Assembly: GCA_017475035.1 (NCBI GenBank)
Contig: JAFVGK010000188.1
Span: forward strand, 1 to 32,521
DNA from: Blautia sp.
GTDB lineage: Bacteria > Bacillota > Clostridia > Lachnospirales > Lachnospiraceae
DNA: 32,521 nt
Direction: 5' to 3'
The position numbers were made by a program, and so were the translations under genes. This document shows positions 8,107 through 27,270 of the stretch, piece after piece. The notes beneath the pieces are model-generated. The model did not search any database and had not been told where the DNA came from. It was given only the letters and a program-made list of their open reading frames with translations. Numbering within the stretch: the stretch's first letter is position 1; each line of letters starts with the position of its first letter.

Positions 8107-9858
8107 TTACGGCAGCCTGCCGAAACAATAGAAATGAGCCTGCCAGTAGCTTGAATTGATCGAAGCATACTGGATCGGGTTCCCGCAGTGGATCATCATT
8201 CCGTCGCCCACATAGATGGCAACGTGGCTTGCGCCGGATGTGTTGTAGGTTCCCTGGAAGAAGATGATATCTCCCGGTTTTGCCTCGCTTCTCGGAATAA
8301 TGGAAAGCTGCTGTCTCAGCCCTTCCGCCGTGGTTCTTCCGTAATTCCAGCCATTGCCGCAGTGGTTGATCACCCAGCACACAAAGCCGGAGCAGTCGAA
8401 ACTGGTGGACGGCGAAGAACCGCCCCATACATACGGATAGCCGAGGTATTTCTCTGCTTCCTGAATCATCCTGGCAAACCGCACATCGCTGAGCGCTTCT
8501 CCCGGAATGTCATAGTCAAGGTATTCCGAGGTGGGTGTCACATTGGCATAGACGTCGCCTTCAAAGAGATAAGGCCGGTTGCCCATGGTCTCATTCAGAA
8601 CCATATAGCGCTCCCGTTCGTCATCCGTCATGCCGGAATCAAATACGGCAGCCTCCAGTGTCTTATTCTTCAAAGTCACATTCAGGATGTAATACTCATA
8701 TTCGACCTCAACTTCGTATTCATATTCCTCTTCTTCGGTTTCTCCGGTCTCCGGGTCTGTATAAGTCGTTGTGCCTGTCCGTGTCTCTGTTCTGGTCCGG
8801 ATCTCCACCTCTTCCTCCAGTTCCAGCTCATACTGCTTATCGAATAATGCCTGCAGTTCGCTCTGGACCTCTGCTCTGGTGTAATCCTCATATTTCACAG
8901 TCAGAAAAGAAGTCAGAACATAAGGATTGTGGTTGATCTCCGCCAGGTTATACCGGTATTCGTCATAACCGGAATGCGTGGATTCAATATTGTCGATCTC
9001 GCTGCGAAGCTCTGCCTCCAGTGCCTTGTAGTCTTCATTGGCACCGATGATATCCGCATCTTCAGCTGTATAGGAGCTGCCCAGCAGCGTTCCTCCGGAT
9101 CCGCCTGCCATGGAAGAACAGGAAGAAAGCTGTGTGAACAGGAAGACCAGCAAAAAGATAAAAGCTCCGCCGATCGCGATGACTCCGGCATGGCTTTTCA
9201 CGAATTCACCGGCTCTGCCGAACACCTGACTTACACGCTCTTTCAAAGACGGTTTCACAGCGTGACCGTAAGTCGCCGGATTGCTGACGGCTCCTCCTGC
9301 CTTTGCTGCGGCGTAATCCTGTTTAATGTTTTTCCGCTGCATAAACCGGGACAGCGGATTGGATTTCCCTGCAGGCTCTGCTGCCGTGCCGGTTGCTTTG
9401 GCCGCCGCGGCAGTTTTAACGCCTTCTGAGAATTCTTCCTCCACATGACGCAGCGTCTCTTTTTCTGCGCTGATCTCCGGTTTCACAGTCCGGTCATGCA
9501 GCTTGTTTCCGTACTTTTTGACCTTCTGTACGGTGCCTCTTGCAACGTCCGCTCCTGCTTCCGCTGCCTGAACGCCCCGGTTGACAGATTCGACGCCGAT
9601 ATTGTCATCTTCATCTGCTTCTGCGATCTTCCTGTGCAGCTCCTGGGATACGACCGCTGATTTCAGCTTCCCGGACTGTTTCTTTTCAATGGGTTTCTTT
9701 CCATGCCGGAGCGTCTGCTCGTTGTTCTTTGTGCCTTTGAGTTTTCGCTTTGTCCGGGTATAGCCATTTTCAGTCGGAAGGCGTTCTGTTTCCTCCGCTT
9801 TGACATCCGGCGTTTTCGCTTCCTTCATGTCATTGCGGAAATTCATCTTTTTCGCCAT
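8107..9858 (-). CDS. transfer-associated NlpC/P60 peptidoglycan hydrolase, CD1108 family
   Basis: 583-aa protein that opens the cell wall for the mating channel (VirB1-like job). A long basic, Ala-rich cytosolic part (1-222) is followed by one transmembrane helix (224-244), an unusual Glu/Tyr/Thr-rich extracellular stretch (about 330-395) and an NlpC/P60 domain (468-583) with YVWGGSSPSTSFDCSGF: Cys489 nucleophile, His545 in ASHVAIYVGDG and His557 as third residue. The start ATG at 9858 shares its A with the VirB4 stop (TAATG). Membrane topology puts the enzyme outside, consistent with the family. Confidence 0.92.
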   Translation of the reverse strand: MAKKMNFRNDMKEAKTPDVKAEETERLPTENGYTRTKRKLKGTKNNEQTLRHGKKPIEKKQSGKLKSAVVSQELHRKIAEADEDDNIGVESVNRGVQAAEAGADVARGTVQKVKKYGNKLHDRTVKPEISAEKETLRHVEEEFSEGVKTAAAAKATGTAAEPAGKSNPLSRFMQRKNIKQDYAAAKAGGAVSNPATYGHAVKPSLKERVSQVFGRAGEFVKSHAGVIAIGGAFIFLLVFLFTQLSSCSSMAGGSGGTLLGSSYTAEDADIIGANEDYKALEAELRSEIDNIESTHSGYDEYRYNLAEINHNPYVLTSFLTVKYEDYTRAEVQSELQALFDKQYELELEEEVEIRTRTETRTGTTTYTDPETGETEEEEYEYEVEVEYEYYILNVTLKNKTLEAAVFDSGMTDDERERYMVLNETMGNRPYLFEGDVYANVTPTSEYLDYDIPGEALSDVRFARMIQEAEKYLGYPYVWGGSSPSTSFDCSGFVCWVINHCGNGWNYGRTTAEGLRQQLSIIPRSEAKPGDIIFFQGTYNTSGASHVAIYVGDGMMIHCGNPIQYASINSSYWQAHFYCFGRLP

Positions 9859-12296
9859 TAACCAGCCTCCTTTGCCTCCGCGACTTCACCGGGCTTGGTC
9901 GTCATGATCTTGTAGAGCTCCAGATCTGTCGGGAACCGGTCCACAAACGGCAGGATCACATTTCCATAGAACAGCAGCCCTTCACCCTCACCGGAATGCG
10001 TCACATAGGAGAGCTGATGCGGTGAGATGTTCAGCTGCTTTGCCAGGATCGCTCTGTCACCGACTGCCTGGTTCAGCATGTAGATGAAATCACTGTTCTC
10101 GAAGATGTTCTCCACCTCGCGGCTGGCCAGCAGGTCCTTTACGTTCTGGGTGATGCCGGTCGGAATGCCGCCCCATTTTCTGAAACGCTTCCAGATCTCC
10201 ACGGAATAAGCTGCTGTCTGTTCTTCCTTCAGAAGCAGATGCATCTCATCCATGTAATACCTGGTGGAACGTCCTTCCTCACGGTTTTCTGTCACCCGGC
10301 CCCAGACCTGATCCTGCACGATCAGCATGCCGATCTTCTTTAACTGCTTGCCCAGCTCCTTGATGTCATAGCAGACAAGGCGGTTATTGATATCGACGTT
10401 TGTGCGGTGATTGAACAGGTTCAGAGAGCCTTTGACGTAGATTTCAAGGGCCGTCGCTACATGCCGTGCTTCCTTCTCATCCTGTTTCATCAGTTCATCG
10501 TATAGATCCTCCAGGACCGGCATGTTCTCCGGACGGGGATCATTGAAATACGACTGATAGACCTGATGCACACAGCGGTCGATGACCGTCTTTTCAATCG
10601 GCTGCAGACCTTCCTTGCCGCCAACCACCAGCTCACAGAGAGACAGGATGAAGTCAGCTTTCAATGCGATCGGGTTATCCTCTTCCGAATAGTTCATATT
10701 TATGTCCATCGGGTTAATGTACTGCGTGCTCATCGGACTGACCTTGATCACCTGGCCTCCCAGCCTCTCTACCAGCGGGGAATACTCTGCTTCCGGATCA
10801 GAAATGATAATGTCGTCATCCGTTACCAGGAAGGCATTGGCAATCTCACGCTTGGCACTGAAGGATTTACCGGAACCCGGCGTACCGAGGATCAGACCGT
10901 TGGGATTCTTCAAAAGCTTCCGGTCTACCATGATCAGGTTGTTCGACAGCGCATTCAGCCCGTAATACAGGGCTTCTCTGCCGCTCTGGAACAGTTCCTG
11001 CGTTGTAAACGGCACGAAGATCGCCGTACTGCTAGTCGTCAGACCGCGTTCGATCTCGATCAGATTTTGTGCCAGCGGCAGGCAGCTCATCAGTCCCTGC
11101 TCCTGCTGGAAGTCCAGGCGGCGCAGGTTGCAGCTGTGCTTCTGGGCAATACTGGATGCCTGGAAAATGTTATTCTCCAGTTCCTGCTTGGTACTGCCGG
11201 TATTCATGATCAGGAATGTCACCATGAACATGCGCTCATTCTGGCTCTGCAGCTCCTTCAGCAGATCCTTTGCATCGTTTCCGTAGGTCGCCAGGTCACT
11301 CGGAATGATATCCATGTCGTAACCGGCGCGGACTGCCTTCTTCTGCTCTTCGATCTTGGAACGGTCCAGCTCTGTGATCGTATGCTTCACTGTCTTGATC
11401 GCCTTGTTCTGATCAAGGGAACGGATATGCATCGTCACGATCTGGCTGGATTCCATATCCAGCAGCTCCTTCAGCAGCTGATCGGAAAGATCCGACGCCG
11501 TGATTGCCAGAAAGCTCATGGCTCCATACAGATCTCCCATCCGGAAATGCCTTCCGCCGGGGAAAGAGAAGGATGACGGCGCGATGAAGTCCTTTGCAGA
11601 AAGACCGGATTCCACCAGCCACTTCCATTCAAAGAAGAACCGGTCCTTATCTCCCATATGGAACATGTCGTGCATCAGCTTCAGCCGTTCCTTGCCGTTC
11701 AGCACCTTTGTCACAACGCCAAGCCTGCGGAAGTTGTTCAGGATATCCGTCTGGATATGGATCAGCCTCGGCTTTGCCTGCTTCATGGATTCTGCTTCTA
11801 TGCCGAAGGTCAGATATTTGGTCTTGGTCAGACCGTTATTGCCCTGCGCCAGCTGCGTGCGAAGCATCTTGCTGTATTCCTCACGGACATCATTGAATCC
11901 GTCGTTCTTCAGCGGGATCCGGATACTTTTCTCAAAGTCCGCTGCATCGGTGCTCAGGTTCATAAACGACAGCTCAAAATTCACGGAGCTGTCGAAGAAG
12001 TTCAGGAAACCGCACCATTCATCAAAGATGGCTGTCTTATCCTCCTGCTGGGCAAGCTGATAATTGATGTCCTGAAACTGAATTGTCTTGGAATAGTAGT
12101 TCGAGCCGGTACGGCAGATGCCGTCCTGGAACATGCGCTGAAACGGAATCGACTGCTGCGCGGTGCGCGGAACGCCATCATCCTTCCGGGCCTTCGCAAC
12201 GATCGCCTCCACCTTCTTACGGTCTTTTTTGCTGAGAGACTTTGGAAGATTCAGCGCGGCGCTTTCCTTTGGCTTTTCTCTCTTCATGGAGAACAA
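9858..12296 (-). CDS. virB4: VirB4-like conjugation ATPase
   Basis: 812-aa cytosolic ATPase that powers the type IV secretion channel. Walker A GTPGSGKS is at 471-478, Walker B YMDEMH at 681-686, and SDPEAEYSPLV (499-509) and ITQNVKDLL follow the VirB4/TraE pattern. The N-terminal 430 residues are the VirB4 N domain. The start is a TTG at 12296: AGGAGG is correctly spaced from it, whereas the ATG three codons later is too far away. It overlaps the PrgI gene by 80 bases, which keeps the two translated together; PrgI-VirB4 adjacency is usual in Gram-positive systems. Confidence 0.95.
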   Translation of the reverse strand: MFSMKREKPKESAALNLPKSLSKKDRKKVEAIVAKARKDDGVPRTAQQSIPFQRMFQDGICRTGSNYYSKTIQFQDINYQLAQQEDKTAIFDEWCGFLNFFDSSVNFELSFMNLSTDAADFEKSIRIPLKNDGFNDVREEYSKMLRTQLAQGNNGLTKTKYLTFGIEAESMKQAKPRLIHIQTDILNNFRRLGVVTKVLNGKERLKLMHDMFHMGDKDRFFFEWKWLVESGLSAKDFIAPSSFSFPGGRHFRMGDLYGAMSFLAITASDLSDQLLKELLDMESSQIVTMHIRSLDQNKAIKTVKHTITELDRSKIEEQKKAVRAGYDMDIIPSDLATYGNDAKDLLKELQSQNERMFMVTFLIMNTGSTKQELENNIFQASSIAQKHSCNLRRLDFQQEQGLMSCLPLAQNLIEIERGLTTSSTAIFVPFTTQELFQSGREALYYGLNALSNNLIMVDRKLLKNPNGLILGTPGSGKSFSAKREIANAFLVTDDDIIISDPEAEYSPLVERLGGQVIKVSPMSTQYINPMDINMNYSEEDNPIALKADFILSLCELVVGGKEGLQPIEKTVIDRCVHQVYQSYFNDPRPENMPVLEDLYDELMKQDEKEARHVATALEIYVKGSLNLFNHRTNVDINNRLVCYDIKELGKQLKKIGMLIVQDQVWGRVTENREEGRSTRYYMDEMHLLLKEEQTAAYSVEIWKRFRKWGGIPTGITQNVKDLLASREVENIFENSDFIYMLNQAVGDRAILAKQLNISPHQLSYVTHSGEGEGLLFYGNVILPFVDRFPTDLELYKIMTTKPGEVAEAKEAG

Positions 12297-16917: not shown

Positions 16918-17829
16918 CTACCGTTCCTGTTCTCTTTGTCTTTTCTTCTGCCACTGTTCCAGCAGCCGGATGATCGTATCCTCCATCTGCTTCGGCGTGT
17001 AGGACTTGGGGAAATACTTCCGGATCACATCATGGGATATCGTGATCTTGCTCATATCGTCTTTCTTGATTTCGTCCATGACCGCGCACATCACATCCAG
17101 CGTGCACTTGTTTTCCTGGCTGTACTTCTTGATCCGCTGTGCCTGGGAGAGTGAAGGCGTTGTCTGTGCATAATCCATCGCCTCAAGGAAAAGCTTTTGT
17201 TCTTCAGGCCGCAGATAAGAGAGTTCCACCGCCGGATTGAAAGCCAGCTTCTTCTGATCGACCATATCCAGAAGCTCCGGGATCAGGTATGTCAGACGGA
17301 TGAAACGCTGAATTTGTCGTGAACTTTCATTCATTTCAGCCGCCATTGAATCTCGTGAGTGCTTTTGGCCAACTTGGCCAAAGGTTTTTCCTTGATGATT
17401 TATCGCCTCCAGCTTCATCCTGTAGGCAAACGCCCTCTCACTGGGAAGCAGCTCTTCACGCTGCAGGTTGCTGTCTACCATCAGGATCGTGGCTGCGTCG
17501 TCATCCATCTCCCGAACAATCACCGGCATGGTCTCTTTTCCGGCAAGCTCAGATGCATGGTGTCTGCGGTGTCCTGCGATCAGCTCATAGCCGCCTTCTG
17601 GAGAAGGTCTTGCGATTGCCGGAACCATCACGCCATATTGCCGGATGCTCTCCACCGTCTTCTGCATTGCTTCATCATCCAGCACTTTGAAGGGATGGTC
17701 CTTGAACGGATGCAGCTCTGACAGTGGGATTTCCTGTACCTTCTCAGCTGACTGATCAGCTCTGCTTTCTTCCGTCGAGAAGATATCATCGTAGCTGCTC
17801 AATCTGATGTTTGCGCCTTTTTTCGGCAT
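16918..17829 (-). CDS. parB: ParB/Spo0J-like partition protein
   Basis: 303-aa DNA-binding partition protein. The ParB/Sulfiredoxin-fold N domain runs from about 35 to 125 with ELIAGHRRHHASELAGK (CTP/DNA-contact box) near 85-101, followed by the NLQREELLPSERAFAYRMK helix-turn-helix region (115-190, including SRDSMAAEMNESSRQIQRFI) and a C-terminal charged tail for dimerisation. It overlaps ParA by 44 bases; AGGAGG lies 9 bases before its ATG inside parA. With ParA it would segregate the element while it exists as a circle. Confidence 0.93.
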   Translation of the reverse strand: MPKKGANIRLSSYDDIFSTEESRADQSAEKVQEIPLSELHPFKDHPFKVLDDEAMQKTVESIRQYGVMVPAIARPSPEGGYELIAGHRRHHASELAGKETMPVIVREMDDDAATILMVDSNLQREELLPSERAFAYRMKLEAINHQGKTFGQVGQKHSRDSMAAEMNESSRQIQRFIRLTYLIPELLDMVDQKKLAFNPAVELSYLRPEEQKLFLEAMDYAQTTPSLSQAQRIKKYSQENKCTLDVMCAVMDEIKKDDMSKITISHDVIRKYFPKSYTPKQMEDTIIRLLEQWQKKRQREQER

Positions 17830-18613
17830 TGGCCTGCACCTCCTTTGTCAGTTTCTGATATGCCACTGCGACCTTGCCTCTGGGATCATGCAGGAAGATG
17901 CTTTTCCCTTCGGAACTGATCTCCGCCGCCCGCACAGAACGAGGAATCTCGGTCTCAAAGACTTTGATATGCCCGCCGTAGGTATCACGGATCAGTGCGG
18001 CAATCTCTTTGGCGTAGTTTGTCCGGCTGTCTACCATCGTCAGCAGGATTCCTTCGATCCTGAGCTTCGGATTGATCTGCCGTTTGACCTTGTTGATGGT
18101 CTGCAGCAGCTGCTCCAGTCCTTTTGCAGACAGGTAATTGGCCTGCACAGGGATCAGTGTGGTATCTGCCGCCGCCAGTGCGTTGACTGTCAGCATCCCC
18201 AGGCTCGGCATACAGTCCAGAAGCACATAGTCATAATCCTTCTTGACCGGCTCCAGGAACTGCTTCAGGATCCGTTCCCGGTTCATCGTGTTGACTAAGG
18301 CGACCTCTAGACCTGCCAGCGAAATATTTGCCGGTATCAGATCAACGCCTTCCTGCTGATGAAGAATGCCCTCCCCGGGCTGAATCGGATCTTCGTTGAT
18401 CGTCTTGTTCAGAAGATCAAACAGCGTAGTCTCCAGATCATCCGGCCTTGGATATCCCAGGCTGATGCTGAGAGATCCCTGCGGATCCGTATCGACCAGC
18501 AATACCTTTTTCCCTTCACGGGCCAGACCGATGCCCAGGTTCTCCGCCGTTGTTGTCTTTGCCGTGCCGCCCTTTTGATTGACGACACAGATCACTGTTG
18601 GCTTGTCTTTCAT
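17786..18613 (-). CDS. parA: ParA/Soj family partition ATPase
   Basis: 275-aa Walker-type ATPase. The deviant Walker A box KGGTAKTTT is at residues 14-22, Walker A' DTDPQGSLS at 42-50, and Walker B VLLDCMPSLGMLT near 130. Complete length, no N-terminal HTH extension, so it is a small ParA (type Ib/Soj-like). The ATG overlaps the RepA stop (ATGA at 18610-18613) and the end overlaps ParB, giving a three-gene RepA-ParA-ParB unit. Confidence 0.95.
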   Translation of the reverse strand: MKDKPTVICVVNQKGGTAKTTTAENLGIGLAREGKKVLLVDTDPQGSLSISLGYPRPDDLETTLFDLLNKTINEDPIQPGEGILHQQEGVDLIPANISLAGLEVALVNTMNRERILKQFLEPVKKDYDYVLLDCMPSLGMLTVNALAAADTTLIPVQANYLSAKGLEQLLQTINKVKRQINPKLRIEGILLTMVDSRTNYAKEIAALIRDTYGGHIKVFETEIPRSVRAAEISSEGKSIFLHDPRGKVAVAYQKLTKEVQANAEKRRKHQIEQLR

Positions 18614-19548
18614 GCGTCCTCCTCTCTCCAGCCGTACAAGTCATGATTCACTTTTGCCTGATAATAGTGGTCAATGGTAATCGGCGCATTGTACAGCGTT
18701 GTAAGCATATATGCCTTGATGTTCCGGATGTCCGTTGTGTTGTCATGGATGCAGTCCAGAACATATTGGATATGTCCATAGTCCAGTTTCATGAACCGGC
18801 TCTTCACAACCTCGGCAGGCCTGTCCTCTCCGGCGCAGCGAATGGTCTTTGCTGTGCTGCATACGGTATCGACCAGCAGTTCCAGGATTTCATCAATGCG
18901 TCCGTGATCATAGGGATAGCTCTGCTTCAGGTCATCGATATACAGATGCTCTCTGAAATATCTCTCATAAGATCTGCGCTCATCCATCTCATCCCTTCCC
19001 ATCCCATCAACGGATACGGTGATCTTTGCGGAACCCGGACCCGGATAGATAGGATTGGTCTTGTTATATTCAGGTTTATTAAAATCAGTATTATTTCCGT
19101 GTGATTTCCACATGTCCAAAGATGTGGTTTTCACATCCCCAGAAGTGTGATTTTCACATGTCTTGAAATGTGATTCCGAATCATTCTGTGGACAGCTTGT
19201 GGAAAACTTCAGGACGTAGATTAGAGACGGCTTCCCAAGTCCCTGACGCTTTCTCTTGATCAGGCCGGTTTTGTTTTCCAGTTCCGAAAGCAGCTTGCAT
19301 GCCTTCTGGTTGCCGCAATGCAGATCGGCCATGATGTCCTCCACCGTGTAGATGATGTAGACACGGTTCAGGGAATCGAGCCATTGATTGCGGATCGACA
19401 GCTGCAGCCGGTCGAGCATCAGCCCATACAGCAGCTTGGCTTCCGTGCTGGTTTCCTGGAACTCATCCCCGGTGATCAGTCTTTTCGGGATACGGTAGAA
19501 CGAATACTGCTCTGCGTCATCCGGACCGTAAAAATAATCAAAACTCAT
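18610..19548 (-). CDS. repA: replication initiator protein, RepA_N family
   Basis: 312-aa initiator. The N-terminal winged-helix domain is evident in YSFYRIPKRLITGDEFQ, TEAKLLYGLMLDRLQLS and the EDIMADLHCGNQKACKLLSE helix-turn-helix (residues 1-115), the classic RepA_N start. A variable linker (130-180) is encoded by 23-bp DNA direct repeats, and a C-terminal DnaD-like part (200-312) follows. The ATG at 19548 is chosen because GGAGG lies 6 bases before it; the longer frame runs into the terminator at 19575-19625. RepA_N replicons usually carry their origin inside rep, which fits the iterons here. Confidence 0.92.
   Translation of the reverse strand: MSFDYFYGPDDAEQYSFYRIPKRLITGDEFQETSTEAKLLYGLMLDRLQLSIRNQWLDSLNRVYIIYTVEDIMADLHCGNQKACKLLSELENKTGLIKRKRQGLGKPSLIYVLKFSTSCPQNDSESHFKTCENHTSGDVKTTSLDMWKSHGNNTDFNKPEYNKTNPIYPGPGSAKITVSVDGMGRDEMDERRSYERYFREHLYIDDLKQSYPYDHGRIDEILELLVDTVCSTAKTIRCAGEDRPAEVVKSRFMKLDYGHIQYVLDCIHDNTTDIRNIKAYMLTTLYNAPITIDHYYQAKVNHDLYGWREEDA
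19100..19190. repeat. 23-bp iterons inside repA, candidate replication origin
   Basis: TGTG begins at 19100, 19123, 19146 and 19169, an exact 23-base period. The first three units share TGTGrTTTyCACAT and the fourth is partial (TGTGATTCCGAATC). Each of the first units contains a near-palindrome of the ATGTGATTTTCACAT type. The period is not a multiple of three, so this is not a protein repeat. A DnaA-box-like TTTTCCACA (minus strand, 19198-19206, one mismatch to TTATCCACA) lies next to it. Confidence 0.72.
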
Positions 19549-19574: not shown

Positions 19575-19625
19575 AAAAAAAGACGCTTACCTGTATCCCC
19601 GAAGGGAAAAACAAATAAACGTCTT
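19575..19625 (-). terminator. long-loop terminator/attenuator in the repA leader
   Basis: Minus-strand 10-bp stem (19616-19625 with 19580-19589) encloses a smaller TCCC-TTCG-GGGA hairpin (19596-19607) and is followed by six T. It lies 35 bases after the sirtuin stop and ends about 26 bases before the repA ATG. No promoter was recognised between the hairpin and repA. Confidence 0.7.
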
Positions 19626-19660
19626 ACTGCCTGTACTTGCTATTCAGTTGTTTTCAGTGC

Positions 19661-20584
19661 TTACAGCTTCATCAGGATCTCCCGGATGTCTCCGTTGATG
19701 CAGATGGATCTGTTTATGATTTCATCCGGTGCGTAGGCCTCGCCGTAATTCAGGCAGGCATATGTCGCATCCGGCCACTGGTTTACGATCTTCCAGAACT
19801 GGAACTTAATAATACTTGGCGTGTTCATGCCGACTGCTGCTTCCAGGAACAGAACCTTCAGATTCTCATGTCTGCGAAGGAATTCCGAATACCTCTCTGC
19901 AGCCTGATGCCATCCTTCATCCTCCACGAACTTGTCATCGGATCTCAGATTCATAGTCATCGGCTCCCCGTCATCCGGGCAGTATGGAATCAGCTCTGTG
20001 GGGATCCGCATGGAGATCTCTCTGCCTTCGGGAATGATCAGCTCATTGTTCTCACCAATCTCAAATCCCTGAGCTAGGATCATCTTCCGCATGATCTCTT
20101 CGTTCTCATAGGTCTTATGTGCGGATGCGCCATGCGGATTGGAGCTTTGCAGCAGTCCGTAGTCGCCCTGCGTATAGAAGAGCCGCTTCTTGTCAAAGCC
20201 GGACCGCTGGAAGCAGTGATCCACATTAGTTGTGATCACGAAGTAGTCCTTGTCCTTCACCAGATTATACAGCCGTTCGTAGGTGTCATTCGGGATCGGC
20301 ATATAACGGTTGATCCAGATGTATCTGCTCCAGTATGCCCACATCTCTTCCGGAGGACACTCCAGCACGTAGAAGCCGCCGGAATACATATCGCTGAAAT
20401 GATACTTCAACGCAAAGTCGGAGAAGTACTTGTCGAACCTCTCACCGGTATAAATGAATCCGGCGGAGGTCGAAAGCCCTGCACCTGCTCCGATGACGAC
20501 AGCATCTGCCTCATCAATCACCTTGCGCAGCTTTGCGATCCCATCCGGGGTCTCTGTCTTTGGTAATCTTCTTCCAAACATCAT
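19661..20584 (-). CDS. SirTM-like sirtuin (Sir2 fold), copy 2
   Basis: 307-aa NAD-binding sirtuin. GAGAGLSTSAGF (near 35-46) is the Rossmann NAD motif and TTNVDHCFQRSGF replaces the usual TQNIDxLH. The catalytic HG of deacetylases is QG here (FYTQGDYGLLQ), as in class M sirtuins (SirTM) that ADP-ribosylate lipoyl carrier proteins. The zinc-ribbon cysteine pairs are missing; one Cys remains in IPYCPDDGEP. Starts at 20584 or the next ATG; GGAGG is 5 bases upstream, and it overlaps the first paralogue by ATGA. Probably an ADP-ribosyltransferase, not a deacetylase; the target is unknown. Confidence 0.88.
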   Translation of the reverse strand: MMFGRRLPKTETPDGIAKLRKVIDEADAVVIGAGAGLSTSAGFIYTGERFDKYFSDFALKYHFSDMYSGGFYVLECPPEEMWAYWSRYIWINRYMPIPNDTYERLYNLVKDKDYFVITTNVDHCFQRSGFDKKRLFYTQGDYGLLQSSNPHGASAHKTYENEEIMRKMILAQGFEIGENNELIIPEGREISMRIPTELIPYCPDDGEPMTMNLRSDDKFVEDEGWHQAAERYSEFLRRHENLKVLFLEAAVGMNTPSIIKFQFWKIVNQWPDATYACLNYGEAYAPDEIINRSICINGDIREILMKL

Positions 20585-21537
20585 GCGCACCTCCGGAGCC
20601 TCTCAGAATCCGTGATCCTTGACAGCTCCTTCATAAAATATCCATTCTCAGGGTAAAATCTGCTGTTTTTGGCCATTTTCGGCCGAATGGGATTCAATAC
20701 ATAAAACACCGGTGTGTTTGCTCCTACCCCAATTTCAAAAAACAGGGTATGCAAATTTTCGTGTCTGCGAATGAAATCAGAGTAAGCTGCGGAAGCCCTG
20801 TGCCATCCTTCATCCTCCACAAAGGAATCGTCAGCTCGGAGATTCATCGTAACCGCAGATCCATCGTCCATACACTTAGGTATCAGTTCAGCAGGAATCT
20901 TCATGACTACGCTGCTTTGAGGAATTTTAAATACACCTTCCGCATCTTTAACAAAGCCCTGCGCCTCCATTGCCTGCATGACCCATTCTTCATTATCGTA
21001 GGTTTTCCGGATTGACGGATTGACACTCTGAAACAAACCATAGTCGCCCTGTGTATAGAATAGGCGTTTTTTATCAAATCCCGCTCGCTGGAACTGATGA
21101 TCCACGTTGGTGGTGATGACAAAGTAATCCTTGCCGCGCACAAGCTCAAAAAGTTTCTGATAGACTGGCTTTGGCGCTTCAATGTAGCGGTTGTAGTAAA
21201 TATGCCGCGCCCACCATGCCCAGCGGGTCTCATCATCCGGAAAAGGATAGAAGCCTCCGGAGTACATGTCGCTGATGCCAAACCGGGCTGCAAAGTCGCC
21301 AAAGTAACGCTCGAAACGTTCTCCGGAATACGTGAATCCTGCTGCGGTGGATAATCCCGCTCCTGCGCCAATCACGATGGCGTCTGCATTTTCCATCTCG
21401 AACCGGAGTCTCGCAATCTGCTCCTGCCTGCCGCCGTCGCCATAGGAGACACCGTTGCGAAAAGCGTGGACGGATGACAGCCCTTTCCGGATTGTCTCCT
21501 GATATCCGTCCGGTCTGTTATTGTAAAAGCTCTTCAT
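20581..21537 (-). CDS. SirTM-like sirtuin (Sir2 fold), copy 1
   Basis: 318-aa paralogue of the next gene, clearly similar throughout (GAGAGLSTAAGFTYSGERF, TTNVDHQFQRAGF, FYTQGDYGLFQ, VTMNLRADDSFVEDEGWH) but with about 40 extra N-terminal residues. Gln replaces the catalytic His and the zinc cysteines are gone except one. The start at 21537 (MKSFYNNRP) overlaps the end of a macrodomain remnant by 20 bases, the arrangement expected when a macrodomain hydrolase gene precedes sirTM. The intact macrodomain partner is missing here, so if the enzyme is active, reversal must come from elsewhere in the genome. Confidence 0.88.
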   Translation of the reverse strand: MKSFYNNRPDGYQETIRKGLSSVHAFRNGVSYGDGGRQEQIARLRFEMENADAIVIGAGAGLSTAAGFTYSGERFERYFGDFAARFGISDMYSGGFYPFPDDETRWAWWARHIYYNRYIEAPKPVYQKLFELVRGKDYFVITTNVDHQFQRAGFDKKRLFYTQGDYGLFQSVNPSIRKTYDNEEWVMQAMEAQGFVKDAEGVFKIPQSSVVMKIPAELIPKCMDDGSAVTMNLRADDSFVEDEGWHRASAAYSDFIRRHENLHTLFFEIGVGANTPVFYVLNPIRPKMAKNSRFYPENGYFMKELSRITDSERLRRCA

Positions 21538-21655
21538 AGTATTCCCTGTCCTCATCCTTAAAGACATTGAAGATTACTCTCTCCATTTCGCTGTCGTGCT
21601 CTGAAAGCCATTCTGTCACTGTCTTCACTGCGATCTGAGCTGCGCGTCTGTTTGG
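21518..21655 (-). pseudogene. 3' remnant of macrodomain protein-ADP-ribose hydrolase
   Basis: Frame ending at TAA 21518-21520 reads PNRRAAQIAVKTVTEWLSEH and then VIFNVFKDEDREYYEELLQ, the last roughly 45 residues of the macrodomain family (C-terminal helix and strand). Everything before, including the ADP-ribose-binding loops, is lost. The break near 21655 joins it out of frame to the start of a PNPOx-like gene. Confidence 0.75.
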
Positions 21656-21758
21656 GAATGGCTGCCGTAACAGGAAGGCCTTCATCGTCCACAGTCGCCA
21701 CTATGGTCGTGTGTATTTCATTTACAAGATAGCGGAAATAGGTTTCTGCGTTCGTCAT
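21655..21758 (-). pseudogene. 5' remnant of a PNPOx-like flavoprotein gene
   Basis: From ATG 21758 (AAGGA 7 bases upstream) the frame gives MTNAETYFRYLVNEIHTTIV then ATVDDEGLPVTAAI, the typical first 34 residues of pyridoxamine-phosphate-oxidase-like FMN proteins. The rest of the split-barrel domain is deleted and the frame continues out of frame into the macrodomain remnant until 21558. Confidence 0.72.
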
Positions 21759-21890
21759 CGTTATTCCTTTCAGCAATGATCTGATTCTTTTATATACGAG
21801 CATTGTGAATCCGGTTAAAACAAGGCCTTTCAGCAAGTTGAACGGGAACGCATTGTACAGAACAACATCCAGCTTCGTTTTGATGAATGA
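21759..21890 (-). pseudogene. C-terminal fragment of an ECF-type transporter S component
   Basis: Directly after the stop of the flavodoxin-like gene the same frame reads FIKTKLDVVLYNAFPFNLLK then GLVLTGFTMLVYKRIRSLLK, a last membrane helix of the kind that ends vitamin (ECF) S components. There is no start, no stop, and it runs on in frame into the PNPOx remnant, so it is a deletion product. Confidence 0.5.
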
Positions 21891-22175
21891 TCAGGCAAGC
21901 AGCCAGTCCACCATCTCGTCAGCGGCCTTCAGTTCTTCCGGCTTCTCCATGATGCTGCCGGGAACGTTCGCATCACCGGCTACATGGGCTTTGTAGTCGC
22001 GGAATCCGGCGGTAGCAAAGCTCTTCAGATTGGTCTCCACCATCTGCGTGTACACATCGACCGGGCCGAAACCGGCAAAGAAGTATCCGCCGAGCTTCTT
22101 GTCCTTACGTCCTGCCATGGAGAAATCGGGCTGGGTGAAGTCCATGAAGGAGTAGGTACGGTCGATCTTCTTCAT
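21891..22175 (-). CDS. flavodoxin-like protein, probably N-terminally truncated
   Basis: 94-aa ORF whose pattern (DKKLGGYFFAGFGPVDVYTQ, then KPEELKAADEMVDWLLA) resembles the C-terminal half of flavodoxin/FMN-reductase proteins; the N-terminal phosphate loop is missing. The ATG at 22175 lacks a convincing ribosome site and follows the Rrf2 stop by 6 bases in the same frame, so it may be translated only by re-initiation, or be a remnant left by deletion. Rrf2 regulators beside flavoproteins are common. Confidence 0.5.
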   Translation of the reverse strand: MKKIDRTYSFMDFTQPDFSMAGRKDKKLGGYFFAGFGPVDVYTQMVETNLKSFATAGFRDYKAHVAGDANVPGSIMEKPEELKAADEMVDWLLA

Positions 22176-22181
22176 GATAGA

Positions 22182-22640
22182 TTAGTTCTTTTCTTCATTC
22201 GATTCATTATTGACTGCCTGCCTCGTGTCTTCCACGATATCGGCAAGCGTTGTGGATCTGAGTTTCTCTTCCATAGCTTTCTGCGCATCAATGAGACGCT
22301 GATTCAACACCTTATGGATGTTTCTGCCCACAGGGCAGTCCGGATTCGGCTGTTCATGGAAATGGAAAAGGCCCTCCTCCGTATCTACACTGCCAACGGC
22401 TTTGTAGATGTCGTAAAGCGTGATCTCATCAAGCCGCTTTGTGAGCTCTGCGCCGCTGCTGCCACGCTGCGTCTGCACAATACCGGCTTCCCGTAACTGT
22501 GAAATGACCGTGCGGACGATGACAGGATTCACCCCTATGCTTCCCGCTAGAAATTCACTGTTCACACGATCCATATCCTTGAAGTAGTCAATAGCCGTGA
22601 TGATGTGAACCCCGATTGTAAATTTGCTTCCGATCTGCAT
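22182..22640 (-). CDS. Rrf2 family transcriptional regulator
   Basis: 152-aa winged-helix regulator. KFTIGVHIITAIDYF and NSEFLAGSIGVNPVIVRTVI are the Rrf2 start and recognition helix; QLREAGIVQTQRGSSGAELTK is the wing. The iron-sulfur cysteine triad of IscR/NsrR is absent (only one Cys in NPDCPVG), so it is of the YwnA/redox-thiol or ligand type. GGAGG precedes its ATG, and a consensus promoter with a perfect inverted repeat lies upstream, pointing to autoregulation of the Rrf2-flavodoxin unit. Confidence 0.9.
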   Translation of the reverse strand: MQIGSKFTIGVHIITAIDYFKDMDRVNSEFLAGSIGVNPVIVRTVISQLREAGIVQTQRGSSGAELTKRLDEITLYDIYKAVGSVDTEEGLFHFHEQPNPDCPVGRNIHKVLNQRLIDAQKAMEEKLRSTTLADIVEDTRQAVNNESNEEKN

Positions 22641-22660
22641 TTTTCACCTCCGCACAAGTT

Positions 22661-22706
22661 TATCAGCTGATAGTTGTAATATATCAAATTACAACTAAGT
22701 TGTCAA
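22661..22706 (-). promoter_or_regulatory. rrf2 promoter with overlapping operators
   Basis: On the minus strand, TTGACA (22701-22706), a 17-base spacer and TATATT (22678-22683). The perfect inverted repeat AGTTGTAAT-7-ATTACAACT (22672-22696) covers spacer and -10, and a perfect 12-base palindrome TATCAGCTGATA (22661-22672) follows. This is a strong candidate Rrf2 binding region. Confidence 0.8.
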
Positions 22707-22775
22707 TGTCTCTATTACATCTTTTTGCAAAAAAGATAGTTCTCACCAATAGAAAGAATGGAATGTACTTTTCCA

Positions 22776-22862
22776 AAGGCTCGAACGAACCCTTTTTGCC
22801 CGAAAAACGAGCCCTCTCCATTATGCCGCTGCTACCCGTATCAAAGACGTAGTGCAGTTTTC
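22776..22862. repeat. dispersed direct repeat, copy 1 (about 87 bp)
   Basis: Shares GGCTCGAACGAaCC, a T run, GCCC, CCCTCTCCATTATGCCG and TATCAAAGACGTAGTGCAG to the end GTTTTC with copies 2 and 3. It lacks the left 45 bases of the other two and is more diverged. Confidence 0.8.
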
Positions 22863-23063
22863 TATCAAGACGCTGTCTTTGATACAAATGTGAAAGACAG
22901 CCTCTGTCGCAAAGAGACCGGAAATATAAAGAAATCAAGGGCTTTCACGATTCTGCCGATCAGCCAGACAGAGCTATGAAGGCCCTTGATGCTCTATTCT
23001 GTTGTCATTGTTCACGCTGCGGCGCTGGGGAAACTTACCCTCCTGTGCACCGCCGGCCGGCAA

Positions 23064-23135
23064 ATAATTAAAATGTAGTCGTATAATTAAATTGTGCGGG
23101 AATAATTAAATTGTGTGGCAAATCATTAAAAGGTC
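23064..23135. repeat. four 19/20-bp A/T-rich tandem repeats, possible IS end
   Basis: ATAATTAAA occurs at 23064, 23083 and 23102 (period 19) with a fourth related ATCATTAAA at 23122, each followed by a G/T-rich half. IS21-family elements carry such multiple terminal repeats, so this may be the leftover end of one; no transposase remains. Confidence 0.5.
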
Positions 23136-23158
23136 CAATCCGCCCGGTCGCTCAATCT

Positions 23159-23671
23159 TCATCCTTTATTCAGGGTATGGATTATTTGAAGTCCGTCGGA
23201 TTCCAGTCCTTTTACCTTCCCCCAAAGATAATGGCCGGGTACAAGTGATAGAAGTAAAATAATCAGATTACAAAAGAGAGGGTAATTCAAAAACCATTCA
23301 ACAGCGCTGTCAGAGAAAAAATCTGATTGAAAAGACAGCCCTGAGAGTCTGAGAATCAAAAGTCCCGCGACCAATAGAAGCGAAACAGCGGGACCGCCCG
23401 AAAGAGTCATTATCATCTTTGTTCTTGAGTCAATCTTCCTTTCCGAAGGGGTAAAAAAGCCATCGAAAACGAGCAGATTCACCGTCACCTTTTTCGTATT
23501 AAGCAGCGGTTTTCCCCATCCGACCCGCACATGCCAATGCTTGTCTCTTGTTGCAAGCATATAACCTATGGCATGGCCAAGTTCATGCAAAAGGGTCGAG
23601 AGGAAAGTCAAAATCCATAAAGCAGCCAGAAAAACAAGCAGTTCTATTATGGCCTCTATAATCATCGGCAT
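23159..23671 (-). CDS. M50-like membrane metalloprotease
   Basis: 170-aa membrane protein. Helix 1 (about 5-40) contains LLHELGHAIGYML, the HExxH zinc site inside the membrane typical of site-2 proteases. Further helices lie near 85-110 and 125-150, and a late SDG replaces the usual NxxPxxxxDG, giving the Asp third ligand near residue 161. It is shorter than most family members. No partner substrate is seen; it lies downstream of a truncated TIGR04076 gene. Confidence 0.75.
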   Translation of the reverse strand: MPMIIEAIIELLVFLAALWILTFLSTLLHELGHAIGYMLATRDKHWHVRVGWGKPLLNTKKVTVNLLVFDGFFTPSERKIDSRTKMIMTLSGGPAVSLLLVAGLLILRLSGLSFQSDFFSDSAVEWFLNYPLFCNLIILLLSLVPGHYLWGKVKGLESDGLQIIHTLNKG

Positions 23672-23701
23672 TGCATTTTCCCCCCCAAATCCCGGTTTTG
23701 T

Positions 23702-23950
23702 TCAGCCTGTATAGGCATCCTCGGATGTATTCCTGAAGTTCTGTTTCGACAGCCACTCTCGCTCCTCGTCATTCTCAGGGATATCGATGCGCTCGATCTT
23801 GAAGATGACCGGCCTCGTACCATCGTTACAGCAAGTGATCATCATGCGGTCGTCATTGGTCCAGCCCTTCATGATGGAACCACCCTGCAGTGCCGTGTAA
23901 ACATATCGGCTGACGGCATCCCACGCTTCCCCGCAGAACTTGCCATTCAT
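23702..23950 (-). pseudogene. truncated duplicate of TIGR04076 family gene
   Basis: Encodes 82 residues nearly identical to residues 55-136 of the complete gene at 27934-28344 (NGKFCGEAWDAVSRYVYTAL, ending EDAYTG). The first 54 codons are gone: homology stops exactly at the Met of MNGKF and the sequence beyond 23950 is unrelated. The DNA is diverged at many third positions, so the copy is not recent. Confidence 0.85.
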
Positions 23951-24464
23951 TTACATATTCCAAGTACTTCACCCACCCATGAAGCAGAAGACCTTGAAAA
24001 CTTTTTAGGCTTTCGGGATGCCCCCACACCTAAAGCTGATATTTACCGCAACCAGCAAGATCGCCCACACCAAAAAGAGCATCCCCCACACCCAAAGAAA
24101 GTTTGACCACAGATGAAGAGTACACCACCACAGCAGATCGAGCAGTCTTCATCTATGGCTCCGCCAACAAAGCCTTCAATAAAAGAAATGTGTATACCTC
24201 TCAATGAATTGATGAATGCCTGCCCACAGTTTTACCCACAGCCCACACCATACTGGGCATGCCCCACACAAAACTTGGAGTACCCCACACCTGAGAGCAT
24301 ACGGTCCACACCAAAAAGGTCCTTAACCCACAAACGAAAAGTGTACCGCCATAGCAGATCAAAACCTTCATCTACGCCTCCGACAACGAATCCCTTCAAA
24401 TATAAAAGCGTATACAACCAAGTCCGCTTATCAATTTTGCGAATGCCTGACTTCTTTCCAACCT
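23951..24464. other. gene-free stretch with CCCACACC motifs and a diverged 130-bp duplication
   Basis: No supported gene. CCCACACC or close variants recur on the plus strand at 24023, 24064, 24085, 24242, 24263, 24284 and 24305, with related CCCACAG/CCCACAA between. Two diverged copies of a block start at about 24063 and 24303 (CCACACCAAAAAG, then GCAGATC, CTTCATCTA, CTCCG, AAAG, TGTATAC). Open frames across it look accidental, as repeats keep them open. Confidence 0.6.
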
Positions 24465-24551
24465 TCAGATTTTCCCATAGCTTTCCACCGCGTATTCCTG
24501 ATCAAACAGTATATTCATTATCTCCACGACCTCCTTTTCACGACTGACCAT
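24465..24551 (-). pseudogene. fragment of Rpn/PD-(D/E)XK nuclease 3' region, copy 1
   Basis: 28 residues, MVSREKEVVEIMNILFDQEY and a short tail, match the segment before the C-terminal tail of Rpn-family (PD-(D/E)XK transposase-like) proteins. About 55 bases are repeated nearly exactly at 24733-24787. Confidence 0.6.
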
Positions 24552-24560
24552 GAAACACTC

Positions 24561-24830
24561 TTACGCTGGAGCTAATTCTTTCCATGAAGCTTCCACATAC
24601 CATTCTGCATCAGAAGAGTCAAGCTTATATGTTTCTGCAATATTCTGTATAACATCTTCTTTTGGAATTCCAAACTTTTGAGCTATATTGACCGCTGCAG
24701 CAATCTCCCTGCTCATCATCCGCCTCTCCATCGCGTATTCCTGGTCAAACAGTATATTCATTATCTCCACGACCTCCTTCTCCCGGCTGGTGAGGTAATC
24801 TTTTAAAACTCCCTCATCCTTGCAAATCCC
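24561..24830 (-). pseudogene. C-terminal fragment of Rpn family nuclease/transposase, copy 2
   Basis: The frame is open from 24830 and gives KDEGVLKDYLTSREKEVVEI, MNILFDQEYAMERRMMSREI and a helical C-terminus ending WKELAPA. This is the end of a recombination-promoting (Rpn/PDDEXK_2) protein; the catalytic N-terminal part is absent. An ATG at 24770 could still start a 69-aa peptide, but it lacks its own promoter. Confidence 0.65.
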
Positions 24831-24873
24831 TTATGATGAAAAAGGGGAATTCGACTGCTATATTGAAACAGTA

Positions 24874-25227
24874 TTAACCTGGAAACAAACGAATGAAATC
24901 AAAAACAATTGGCAGACTTACACTTCCGATATTTCGGGATACAAGATAAAGGTCGAGTTGTTCACCGAGATAACCGATGTTTTGCAGATAACCGTCTTTC
25001 TTTTCGCTGTAAAGCAGAACGCAGTATTCTCCTCCTCGTTTGCAGTTAGTCTCCTTTTCGGAAACTATGCGAATGGCGGTTTTGATTTCGGGATTCAGGG
25101 GAGTTAACTCTGAATATGCATTTTGTATATCGTTGAGTTCACATTCATCGATTTATTCGTTTCCAACATTTCTGAAAATATGAAACGACTTTCTTTTAAA
25201 TATCATTTCATAAAAGATGTTGTTCAA
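24874..25227 (-). pseudogene. nitroreductase family pseudogene (internal stop, truncated end)
   Basis: From a TTG at 25227 with GGAGGTGA upstream the frame reads NNIFYEMIFKRKSFHIFRNV-GNE, then TAA at 25153-25155, then continues in frame IDECELNDIQNAYSELTPLN, EIKTAIRIVSEKETNCKRGG, EYCVLLYSEKKDGYLQNIGY and GEQLDLYLVSRNIG before diverging and stopping at 24874. This is the N-terminal half of a nitroreductase-fold protein, inactivated by a nonsense codon and a 3' deletion. Confidence 0.75.
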
Positions 25228-25252
25228 TGAAATCACCTCCCCAAATACCGAT

Positions 25253-25315
25253 TTATTCGTCTTCAACTACAATTCCGTCATCAGGATTCAGCGAAATAAG
25301 TGTTACTTTTGCCAT
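25253..25315 (-). CDS. possible 20-aa peptide after the chromate transporters
   Basis: ATG at 25315, nine bases after the ChrA stop, with AGAGGTGG nearby; reads MAKVTLISLNPDDGIVVEDE. Its last codons (GTTGAAGACGAATAA) resemble the 3' end of the degenerate 58-aa family gene at 27746, so it may be a fused leftover. Confidence 0.3.
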   Translation of the reverse strand: MAKVTLISLNPDDGIVVEDE

Positions 25316-25324
25316 AACCACCTC

Positions 25325-25888
25325 TTATAATTCATAAACAATTAATCCTGCTAAAGCCGATATTCCAATCAGCCCAATCGGTGAAATACCATTCTTCAGG
25401 ACTTTTCTTGAACCGAAGTATACGGTTCCAAGAACAATCGTCATAATAACTGCAGTTGTATCGACTGATACTGCACCATAACTTCCTACACTGTGCTGGA
25501 GGATCATAAAGATACCCGTTGCCAGAATAATGCCGATAATGCACGGTTTCAATCCTCTCAGAACAGCTTGCACATATGGGTTCTTCAGCAGTTTTTTCAA
25601 AAGAATCATAATCAGCAGAATTGTGATAAACGAAGGAAGCACTACAGCTGCTGTGGCAATAAGAGCACCCCAGAAGCCTGCCTGTGAACTGCCCACATAC
25701 GTTGCCAGATTAACCATGATGGGTCCCGGCGTACTTTCACTGACTGCAATCATGTATGTAAGCATTTCATCCTCGATCCAGCCGTACGAGAGTACCATAT
25801 CTCTGATCAGAGGAATTGCGCCATACGCGCCGCCGAAGGCAAACAGTCCCACCTTCAGAAAGCCGATAAGCAAATCGAAGTAGATCAT
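25325..25888 (-). CDS. chromate transporter family (half-size), second subunit
   Basis: 187-aa membrane protein with six hydrophobic stretches, of the short CHR type that acts in pairs. LIGFLKVGLFAFGGAYGAIP and SESTPGPIMVNLATYVG are the two CHR family signatures. It overlaps the first subunit as ATGA (25885-25888). Members export chromate or related oxyanions; in gut anaerobes the true substrate is uncertain. Confidence 0.92.
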   Translation of the reverse strand: MIYFDLLIGFLKVGLFAFGGAYGAIPLIRDMVLSYGWIEDEMLTYMIAVSESTPGPIMVNLATYVGSSQAGFWGALIATAAVVLPSFITILLIMILLKKLLKNPYVQAVLRGLKPCIIGIILATGIFMILQHSVGSYGAVSVDTTAVIMTIVLGTVYFGSRKVLKNGISPIGLIGISALAGLIVYEL

Positions 25889-26460
25889 TTCGCCGCACCT
25901 ACCTTTCCGGTATTCTCCTTGATCAGGAATATGGCAACGCTAATGACCGCCGCAATCAACATCAAGGTGATGGAGGATATTCGCAGAGCAAAGATGTCGA
26001 TCACCAGCATGGCACTAAATGCGCAGATCATAATGGTGAGTGGTATTGGCTTTTTCTGCATCTTTTTGATCATCTTAATTGCAGCATCAAGGATCATTAA
26101 TCCTACAGCAATCTTGATTCCCATGAAAGCATGAGCTATCCACATAATCTCCAGAAAATTGTCCAGAAACATGGAAATCAGGAATATGATACAGAATGAG
26201 GGAAGCACCATGCCGATTGTCGCTGCGACAGCTCCAGTTAAGCCTTTCTGTTTATAACCGACGAAGGTGGCGCAATTGATGGCAATCGGACCCGGTGTGG
26301 ATTCTGCGATTACTGTGACATTCATCATCTCATCATGAGTAATCCATTGTTTTTTCTCCACACAGGAATTCTCTATCAAAGAAATCATGGCATATCCGCC
26401 GCCAAAGGTGAAAAGCCCGATCTTGGCAAACGTCAGAAAAAGATCAAGCATGATATTCAT
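25885..26460 (-). CDS. chromate transporter family (half-size), first subunit
   Basis: 191-aa paralogue of the next gene: LFLTFAKIGLFTFGGGYAMI and AESTPGPIAINCATFVGYKQ are the CHR signatures, with about six membrane helices. Its ATG is 3 bases after the stop of the DUF134/NifX-like gene, and the ribosome site is weak, so translation is probably coupled. Together with the following subunit it would form a heterodimeric transporter. Confidence 0.92.
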   Translation of the reverse strand: MNIMLDLFLTFAKIGLFTFGGGYAMISLIENSCVEKKQWITHDEMMNVTVIAESTPGPIAINCATFVGYKQKGLTGAVAATIGMVLPSFCIIFLISMFLDNFLEIMWIAHAFMGIKIAVGLMILDAAIKMIKKMQKKPIPLTIMICAFSAMLVIDIFALRISSITLMLIAAVISVAIFLIKENTGKVGAAK

Positions 26461-26463
26461 ACA

Positions 26464-27192: not shown

Positions 27193-27206
27193 AAGCCCTC
27201 CTTTCC

Positions 27207-27252
27207 GACATATGTCAAAAACTATTATACATACGTTTGTGACATAAGTCAA
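27207..27252 (-). promoter_or_regulatory. promoter and palindromic operators of the DUF134-chromate operon
   Basis: Minus strand: TTGACT (27247-27252), 17-base spacer, TATAAT (27224-27229). GACTTATGTC (27241-27250) at the -35 and the perfect palindrome GACATATGTC (27207-27216) after the -10 flank the start point, a good arrangement for autorepression by the HTH protein. Confidence 0.8.
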
Positions 27253-27270
27253 TAACTCGACACATAAAAA

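Follow-up and report, generated by a model that had tools for sequence, protein, structure and literature searches.

Two genes for class M sirtuins stand in tandem in a 32,521-nt stretch of DNA from Blautia sp. (GenBank assembly GCA_017475035.1, contig JAFVGK010000188.1, positions 1 to 32,521 of the forward strand; below, the window), with the remains of a macrodomain gene on one side and the replication genes of a mobile element on the other, and the question raised by this locus is how such a pair came about. An initial annotation, made from the letters alone, had pictured a doubled ADP-ribosylating writer without its eraser. We favor a different answer, to which we give a probability of about 0.77: that a conjugative-type element has integrated site-specifically in the host sirTM gene, at its Asn-Thr-Pro (NTP) codons, and has brought an intact sirtuin, SirTM2, of its own. 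The genes listed below lie on the minus strand; features were assigned from open reading frame (ORF) calls and from Pfam and other profile matches, some names being presumed. Handles beginning with L, G, and C denote loci, genomes, and contigs, G000 being the window's own genome. The features on which the argument turns are the following (the two sirTM ORFs, 21567-20581 and 20590-19661, overlap):

19661..20590, minus strand: SirTM2, a complete class M sirtuin of 309 aa, apparently just inside the element's left end
20581..21567, minus strand: SirTM1, putative host class M sirtuin of 328 aa, cut at the NTP codons, with a 42-residue tail that appears element-derived
20688..20712, no strand assigned: candidate attL (B-P'), core CCGG plus inverted P arm, plus-strand sequence TGGGATTCAATACATAAAACACCGG
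19817..19825, minus strand: NTP codons inside SirTM2 (its own attB-like site), where the L031/L172 chimera switches to the element 3' end
21518..21658, minus strand: macrodomain remnant, the last ~45 codons, matching PRK04143 positions 216-261 only

The two sirtuins and the break at the NTP codons

Both window sirtuins match the S. pyogenes SirTM structure 5a3a in a sequence search (E 1.9e-41 and 4.6e-53), and both carry QG in place of HG along with equivalents of Asn118, Gln137, and Arg192 of S. pyogenes SirTM (SpySirTM; residue numbering from the available sections of PMC4518038), which bears out their initial assignment as tandem class M sirtuins on the minus strand. Among 122 aligned SirTM genes (136 unique sirTM NTP sites less 14 without a recognizable NAD motif), the glutamine of QG is present in 122/122, and the three active-site residues in 121/122 (N), 122/122 (Q), and 122/122 (R). 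The zinc cysteines have indeed been lost, both Cys pairs being absent from SirTM1 and SirTM2, as they are from 100 of the 121 scorable SirTM genes (1 of the 122 could not be scored) in a sample biased to relatives of the query. Such loss had been taken as expected for class M; however, SpySirTM has a zinc domain and coordinates zinc, according to the available sections of PMC4518038, so the loss is not a class M feature but one common in this clade.

Similarity of SirTM1 to SirTM2, and to a third SirTM on contig C2 of the same assembly, ends after the NTP codons, where SirTM1 has 42 unrelated residues and the C2 protein has 51; a normal C-terminus of ~50 residues has been replaced by a 42-residue tail. 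In AlphaFold2 models, SirTM1 residues 281-328 have a predicted local distance difference test score (pLDDT) below 50, that is, they are predicted to be disordered, and the model aligns to 5a3a at TMq 0.62; the SirTM2 model reaches pLDDT 87, with 5a3a as its best PDB match (E 1.3e-26, TMq 0.80). A complete sirtuin Rossmann fold, including the C-terminal adenine-side part, is predicted for SirTM2 and not for SirTM1, and the earlier statement that both proteins keep the NAD pocket is not confirmed, since SirTM1 loses its C-terminus after NTP. Between the window and L044, a locus from a Lachnospiraceae metagenome-assembled genome (MAG), SirTM2 is 98% identical in amino acids and 96.8% in DNA, with 23 synonymous and 7 non-synonymous differences (a ratio of non-synonymous to synonymous rates, dN/dS, of 0.076), a pattern that, as far as codon changes can tell, shows it to be kept under purifying selection; it would presumably be the active enzyme that takes over from the cut SirTM1. 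SirTM2 matched 0 PADLOC families at E up to 0.001.

Breakpoints were located as change points in codon-aligned SirTM genes, a procedure that replaced a first ungapped scan of bodies against 3' ends, which had given alignment artefacts. The proline codon of the SirTM1 NTP ends at 20710. Compared with L042 (Lachnospiraceae MAG), window DNA identity falls from 86% to 33-40%, with the change point at +2 nt from the NTP codon (interval 0 to 3), and compared with SirTM1 of L044 it rises from 70% to 98%, with the change point at -3 nt (interval -9 to 3). L044 has an intact macrodomain, a SirTM1 that is 71.5% DNA-identical overall, the same tail, SirTM2, and the element backbone (92% identical over 6.8 kb). 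Because the SirTM1 bodies of window and L044 agree at ~70% in DNA and the tails at 98%, the body appears to be a host gene, and the tail and SirTM2 element DNA. In L169 (G256), a diverged tandem (49-72% amino acid identity) is arranged in a similar way, with the macrodomain intact and SirTM1 cut at the same residue, though its SirTM2 is broken off after ~150 residues. Many of the compared genomes are MAGs; an assembly artefact at the window junction is unlikely, because the same junction is present in two independent assemblies (window and L044), with a homologue in L169.

Other genes change partners at the same codons. In G010 (L031/L172), a different host sirTM continues from NTP onward with the sirTM 3' end of this element, followed by its leader and a decayed repA (change point 0 nt, interval -3 to 4; 63% identity before and 98% after), and L134 combines a body like that of L128/L131 (89%) with a foreign 3' end that begins at NTP (change point -1, interval -5 to 0) and is common, together with an ATPase gene, to L089 at 89%. 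In a codon alignment extended to 166 genes (44 added; 40 further loci were picked from the ranked match list rather than at random, and 5 of them gave no NTP pattern), the breakpoint falls at NTP, within a narrow interval, in 8 of 40 strict mosaic pairs, the recipients being SirTM1 of the window, SirTM1 of L044, L031, and L134; the 44 added genes contributed no new NTP mosaic. Displaced second sirTM 3' ends starting from the NTP codon were also observed, one of them in L137, 618 bp downstream of the first, and eight more in 6 of the 40 further loci (L216, L224, L229 with two, L231, L238 with two, and L247), those of L216 and L231 being short partial copies. Three weak fragments (30-42% identity; L216, L240, and L252) were not scored as displaced ends, and an apparent NTP cut in L170 (G028) was rejected, as it reads as a frameshift.

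The P arm, a candidate attachment site, and cassettes at the same codon

One and the same motif, TGGTRCGCAATARAYATAACACC, followed by CC or the like, stands before each of the nine displaced 3' ends. The consensus of this 23-bp P arm was built from seven of the nine ends, all from genomes other than that of the window. The bases that follow the SirTM1 break are an inverted copy of it: read on the other strand, those right after NTP give TGGGATTCAATACATAAAACACC in the window and TGGCGCTCAATACACATAACACC in L169. When 171 sirTM NTP sites were compared with the inverted arm at 6 offsets, only the window, L044, and L169 carried it (5, 5, and 3 mismatches of the 19 outer bases, the next best site having 9). 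By way of background, ~1 in 11,000 of 570,000 19-mers from the examined sequence, true sites included, reaches 5 mismatches.

The direct motif has 11 distinct matches in the 1.716 Mb examined (mostly sirTM loci; up to 4 mismatches allowed, none found above 3), all downstream of sirTM genes. A scan of the family returned 29 matches at ≤3 mismatches in 21 of 397 genomes, and 0 for a reversed-pattern control. Seven of these are motif-defining sites and 22 are new; a sirTM 3'-end copy follows within 30 nt in 22/29, 16/29 share the strand of a listed SirTM match and lie ≤3.8 kb downstream of it, and 25/29 (18/22 among the new ones) show one or both features. In the class-wide scan, 1 of 245 genomes had the motif and the reversed control gave 1 match in another genome (G442), so that beyond the family the motif occurs rarely, at close to background level. 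That single match (L284) again precedes a sirTM 3' end. No match to the exact form was found in the viral_contigs set. We also note an exact P-arm consensus near position 1500 of L255 (G184:C8), with no sirTM copy beside it and next to an ORF that we take, by its look, to be a cyclopropane synthase.

Because only the truncated genes carry the inverted arm and the displaced ends follow the direct arm, the truncated SirTM1 reads as a B-P' junction and the displaced ends read as P-B' junctions around a CC|GG core. Junctions of these two kinds round a short core are the layout expected for large serine recombinases. In G256, C42 (L169) holds a B-P' end and C94 (L266) has a P-B' end at its edge; though the contigs are not joined, this is what would be expected of the two ends of one element. 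A recombinase ORF in L284 (PF07508, PF14287/DUF4368, and Zn_ribbon_recom; no Resolvase domain in the ORF as called) ends 13 nt before P and is followed by the displaced sirTM 3' end, and in L272 a DUF4368 C-terminus ends 18 nt before P. At the level of sequence comparison, then, the break at NTP, the inverted P arm, the P-B' junctions elsewhere, and a serine recombinase beside one of these junctions are established. Other candidate integrases were rejected: a tyrosine integrase beside sirTM in L226, which has only weak partial matches among the loci examined (L212 and L236), and, as the general integrase, a serine recombinase triplet downstream of sirTM in L070, which has no P arm and whose kind lies ≤300 bp downstream of sirTM in only 4 of 80 named loci (any serine recombinase counted).

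Small cassettes lie between sirTM and the P arm in other genomes, at the same NTP codon, and leave an intact sirTM whose 3' end comes from the element. Pfam assigned ten cargo proteins, which had been selected by eye, to AAA_14/DUF4143 (two), AbiEi, AbiEii (three), HipA, RhuM-Fic, Schlafen AlbA_2 with a RecG-type C-terminus, and MazE-like; a PADLOC run on nine of these gave strong matches to AbiEi/AbiEii, PDC-S01, and PDC-S23/S05, and weak ones for the HipA and Schlafen-type proteins. Six cassette groups recur across different genomes at 84-96% DNA identity. Among the groups whose right end is in view, L263/L273/L275 and L038/L279 lose this identity 2-46 bp beyond the P arm, whereas L224/L264 keep it for 180 bp, across the displaced end; at the left, the common stretches start 136-440 bp after NTP, some of these starts being set by the ends of the loci examined. 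Cassettes are also stacked in tandem (L229, L238, L224/L277, and L261/L279). In this, and in being small, bounded by attachment sites, and without visible recombinase, they resemble cis-mobilizable elements and accretion arrays (CIME/IME); they differ in that each starts with a copied 3' end of the target gene and closes with the conserved arm, and in that the ten cargo proteins are of toxin-antitoxin or defence-candidate types.

Proposed integration into sirTM and competing explanations

On our preferred reading, the host sirTM would hold a fixed attachment site at its Asn-Thr-Pro codons, and a conjugative-type element with RepA_N, ParA/B, and type IV secretion genes would enter there, most likely via a large serine recombinase. 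SirTM1 would be cut after NTP and would acquire a nonsense tail read from the element's P' arm, while the element-borne SirTM2, ~120 bp inside the junction, could replace the lost enzyme. The cut gene (B-P') and the NTP site of SirTM2 (B-B') might then recombine to leave a single gene with the element's 3' end, as in G010 (L031/L172), and small toxin-antitoxin or defence-type cassettes at the same codon would end in the P arm, usually then followed by the displaced sirTM 3' end. We infer the collapse to a single sirTM because cassettes leave sirTM whole, unlike plain integration, and because the outcome matches the structure of L031; likewise, a serine recombinase is the probable rather than the observed agent at the window copy, since the right end and the recombinase are not in the window's assembly.

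A number of observations weigh against this account. The element's right end (P-B') and recombinase were not found in the G000 assembly, which also has no P motif at ≤3 mismatches; its only displaced-end-like fragment, on C88, was rejected as the missing right end because its break lies at another residue. No window ORF was identified as an integrase, and both the window and the L044 contig end inside the element. The window's own inverted arm departs at 5/19 positions from a consensus made from other genomes. In the flanks examined of the 80 named loci (L042-L121) the P motif has 0 matches, and hosts of the window type and P-arm arrays come together only in the G256 contig pair. No tie to sirTM was seen for four of the 29 family matches (L255 with 0 mismatches; L265, L267, and L269 with 3 each), the last three probably being chance matches, and the serine recombinases beside sirTM in L046, L070, L075, L097, and L249 have no P motif. 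Related elements (L167/L168 and G081) have other genes upstream of repA, so that SirTM2 is not universal. Plain serine integration yields B-P', not the intact genes found at small cassettes, and a second step must therefore be assumed. Finally, in 32 of the 40 strict mosaic pairs, 25 of which belong to a single group with Butyrivibrio genomes among its members, the breakpoint lies elsewhere than at NTP, a pattern that ordinary recombination would produce.

This last observation is what might be expected if homologous recombination or gene conversion between sirTM paralogues had made all the mosaics, the breakpoints having come to lie in the best conserved codons by chance, with no site-specific system involved. 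However, DNA just upstream of NTP is only 53-64% identical between the partners (L031/SirTM2 copies, L089/L134, and window/L044), which is too low for usual homologous exchange, the NTP breakpoints agree within a few nt across different hosts, and nine displaced ends lie behind one conserved arm; we regard this explanation as extremely improbable. A functional two-gene unit, in which a modified SirTM1 with its new tail partners SirTM2 (for example, in regulation) and is conserved for that, is unlikely in a lesser degree. It would fit the recurrence of the truncated-SirTM1 tandem in two further genomes (L044 and the diverged L169) with overlapping stop and start and a similar tail length, the tail being open to the SirTM2 start in all three; with these tandems, the outcome that the initial annotation had named as refuting it, a pair not conserved in related genomes, did not come about. 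The tail is nevertheless predicted to be disordered, its start is accounted for by the inverted P arm, the ~70% identity of the bodies against 98% for the tail marks the body as host-derived, and SirTM2 of L169 is itself broken off.

The initial proposal, that a doubled ADP-ribosylating writer without its eraser serves the element as a toxin-like, defence, or regulatory system, draws on the intact class M residues of both proteins, on the deletion of the macrodomain in the window, and on the defence-type genes in cassettes at other sirTM loci. We consider it very improbable: SirTM1 lacks its normal C-terminus, a complete macrodomain and a third, complete SirTM are present on C2, the L044 tandem keeps its macrodomain, and SirTM2 corresponds to no PADLOC model.

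The element, the host operon, and what the locus may mean

The remaining features are, for the element and then for the decayed host operon:

19590..19649, minus strand: repA leader, common to L044, L167/L168, L172, and G234
18610..19548, minus strand: RepA_N/DUF6017 replication initiator, immediately downstream of the sirtuin pair
17786..18613, minus strand: ParA-like partition protein (presumed name), gene order as in L044
16918..17829, minus strand: ParB-like partition protein (presumed name), gene order as in L044
14007..15830, minus strand: VirD4/TraG-type coupling protein, PF02534 E 1.2e-49
9858..12296, minus strand: VirB4-type ATPase (TraG P-loop domain), PF19044 E 3.2e-12
21658..21758, minus strand: remnant of the N-terminus of a 207-aa protein of L042, joined by deletion to the macrodomain remnant
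21877..22175, minus strand: 94-aa ORF of the decayed host operon, no Pfam family, 98% identical to L042 924-1212
22182..22640, minus strand: Rrf2-family regulator (HypR-like) at the head of the host operon, PF02082 E 3e-29 (NF041852 E 3.6e-16, under that model's cut-off)

That the pair neighbors the replication genes of a mobile element was correctly recognized from the start. After the sirtuins come repA (RepA_N/DUF6017), parA-like, parB-like, VirD4-type, TrbL_2, VirB4-type ATPase, NlpC/P60, and CD1107-like genes, which include type IV secretion and coupling functions (VirD4, TrbL_2, and the VirB4-type ATPase); no relaxase was named among the 30 window ORFs scanned, in an element that is incomplete, with 20.7 kb in view. 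We take the element to be akin to the Tn1549-like/RepA_N conjugative elements, with which it has these genes in common in the same order (RepA_N-DUF6017, ParA-like, ParB-like, VirD4, TrbL_2, VirB4-type ATPase, NlpC/P60, and CD1107-like); it differs in having its left end in sirTM and in that neither relaxase nor integrase was named among the ORFs scanned in those 20.7 kb. A left end at the repA leader (window 19649), suggested by L167/L168, was rejected because the 97-98% identity of window and L044 reaches the SirTM1 NTP. Genes of hsdM-like type stand upstream of the repA leader in G081 and L167, and those upstream of repA in L167/L168 are presumably restriction-modification-like; L167 and L168 come from contigs listed as viral (viral_contigs), on which a repA of this element type was thus observed. 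In L122 (12442-13767; G234:C73), the end of an oxidoreductase-like gene runs straight into a SirTM2-like gene fused to it, without an intervening macrodomain, and the element's leader, though not its backbone, lies downstream.

On the other side of the junction, L042 represents the intact host operon, to which window DNA is 82-98% identical in pieces. The Rrf2-led operon at window 21658-22800 has three deletions relative to L042 (639 to 924, 1212 to 1734, and 1970 to 3164), by which most of the macrodomain is gone and the start of another reading frame is fused to its end; L042 1734-1970 aligns with window 21889-21658 at 90%. The window ORF at this second remnant matched 0 Pfam families, and the 207-aa protein of L042, which no library named, carries a PNPOx-like label that is our assumption. 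As initially described, only the C-terminal ~45 codons of the macrodomain gene survive, and no linked intact copy is present in the window; intact genes stand beside sirTM in C2, L042, and L044, the C2 copy belonging to an assembly of 200 contigs with 5% estimated contamination. The C2 operon (L004 4202-8089; G000:C2) is intact, with an Rrf2 regulator, a radical SAM-like protein, Zn-macrodomain, and SirTM, the names other than the last two being presumed from the sequence.

Across the 80 named SirTM loci, the macrodomain is intact ≤1 kb upstream in 53, elsewhere in the flank in 5, partial in 4, and absent from the flanks examined in 13 with ≥2 kb upstream and in 5 with a short flank; its absence beside sirTM is nothing special, given those 13 loci and a tandem in L044 that keeps it. 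In L093, the macrodomain match at 5778-6044, ahead of an intact sirTM, is limited to residues 9-64 and 231-270, which again points to repeated loss of the macrodomain. Of the 56 loci with ≥4 kb of upstream sequence, 28 have an Rrf2 gene there. A GcvH-L carrier, for which the initial annotation suggested a search of the genome, was not found (PF01597, 0 matches at E 0.001 in a genome 93.6% complete; control matches in 13/14 genomes), and as no GcvH-family protein is found there, neither is the lipoylated target of the extended operon. In L097, serine recombinase genes flank the sirTM operon on both sides (300-2957 and 7164-9404), as if the operon were cargo. Farther along the window (23000-32500) are a TIGR04076 protein, a chromate transporter pair, a DUF134/Nitro_FeMo-Co protein, a MATE transporter, and a ferredoxin-type protein.

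As described in the available sections of Rack 2015 (PMC4518038) and Ariza 2024 (PMC11490716), class M sirtuins form SirTM/Zn-macrodomain pairs. The loci analyzed here have in common with these the QG motif, the Asn/Gln/Arg set, the SirTM2 fold matching 5a3a, and a macrodomain gene that overlaps the sirTM start (L042, L044, and C2); they differ in the absent zinc cysteines, in the lack of a detectable GcvH-type protein in the window's genome, in the upstream Rrf2 gene of half the loci assessed, and, in the window, in the cut SirTM1 and deleted macrodomain. With the large serine recombinase elements that enter conserved sites within protein-coding genes, as presented in the main text of PMC10083194, the loci share dyad-like P/P' arms, a short core, B-P'/P-B' junctions, and a recombinase gene beside the attachment site in L284; the target, sirTM, is different, as is the presence of a complete second copy of the target gene in the window element, and the words sirtuin and Sir2 do not occur in the main text of that survey as available. 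No report of a sirtuin gene as integration site was found in the literature searched, a search with most subscription journals and bioRxiv outside its coverage. Entry of serine recombinases into conserved genes is of a known kind; what appears new is sirTM as the target, a replacement enzyme brought along by the element, and defence-type cassettes anchored at sirTM.

The locus offers a sequence-defined attachment site, with a putative attB at the NTP codons, P and P' arms, and a candidate recombinase, and with it, possibly, a new place at which genetic tools could be integrated in Clostridia of the gut and rumen. The account would explain sirtuin tandems and broken copies as footprints of insertion, not as a new signalling device. 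More tentatively, and with somewhat less than even confidence, we suggest that the sirTM genes of this bacterial family may be a dedicated landing site for arrays of defence and toxin-antitoxin cassettes and for whole conjugative elements, in which each newcomer brings a replacement sirtuin 3' end or a whole sirtuin, so that the parasites would rebuild the ADP-ribosylating enzyme of their host time and again. This would amount to an integron-like cassette system, driven by serine recombinases and anchored in a metabolic stress enzyme. Defence and toxin-antitoxin genes would then gather at the enzyme gene of a redox-type operon by a mechanism that keeps or replaces the target enzyme.

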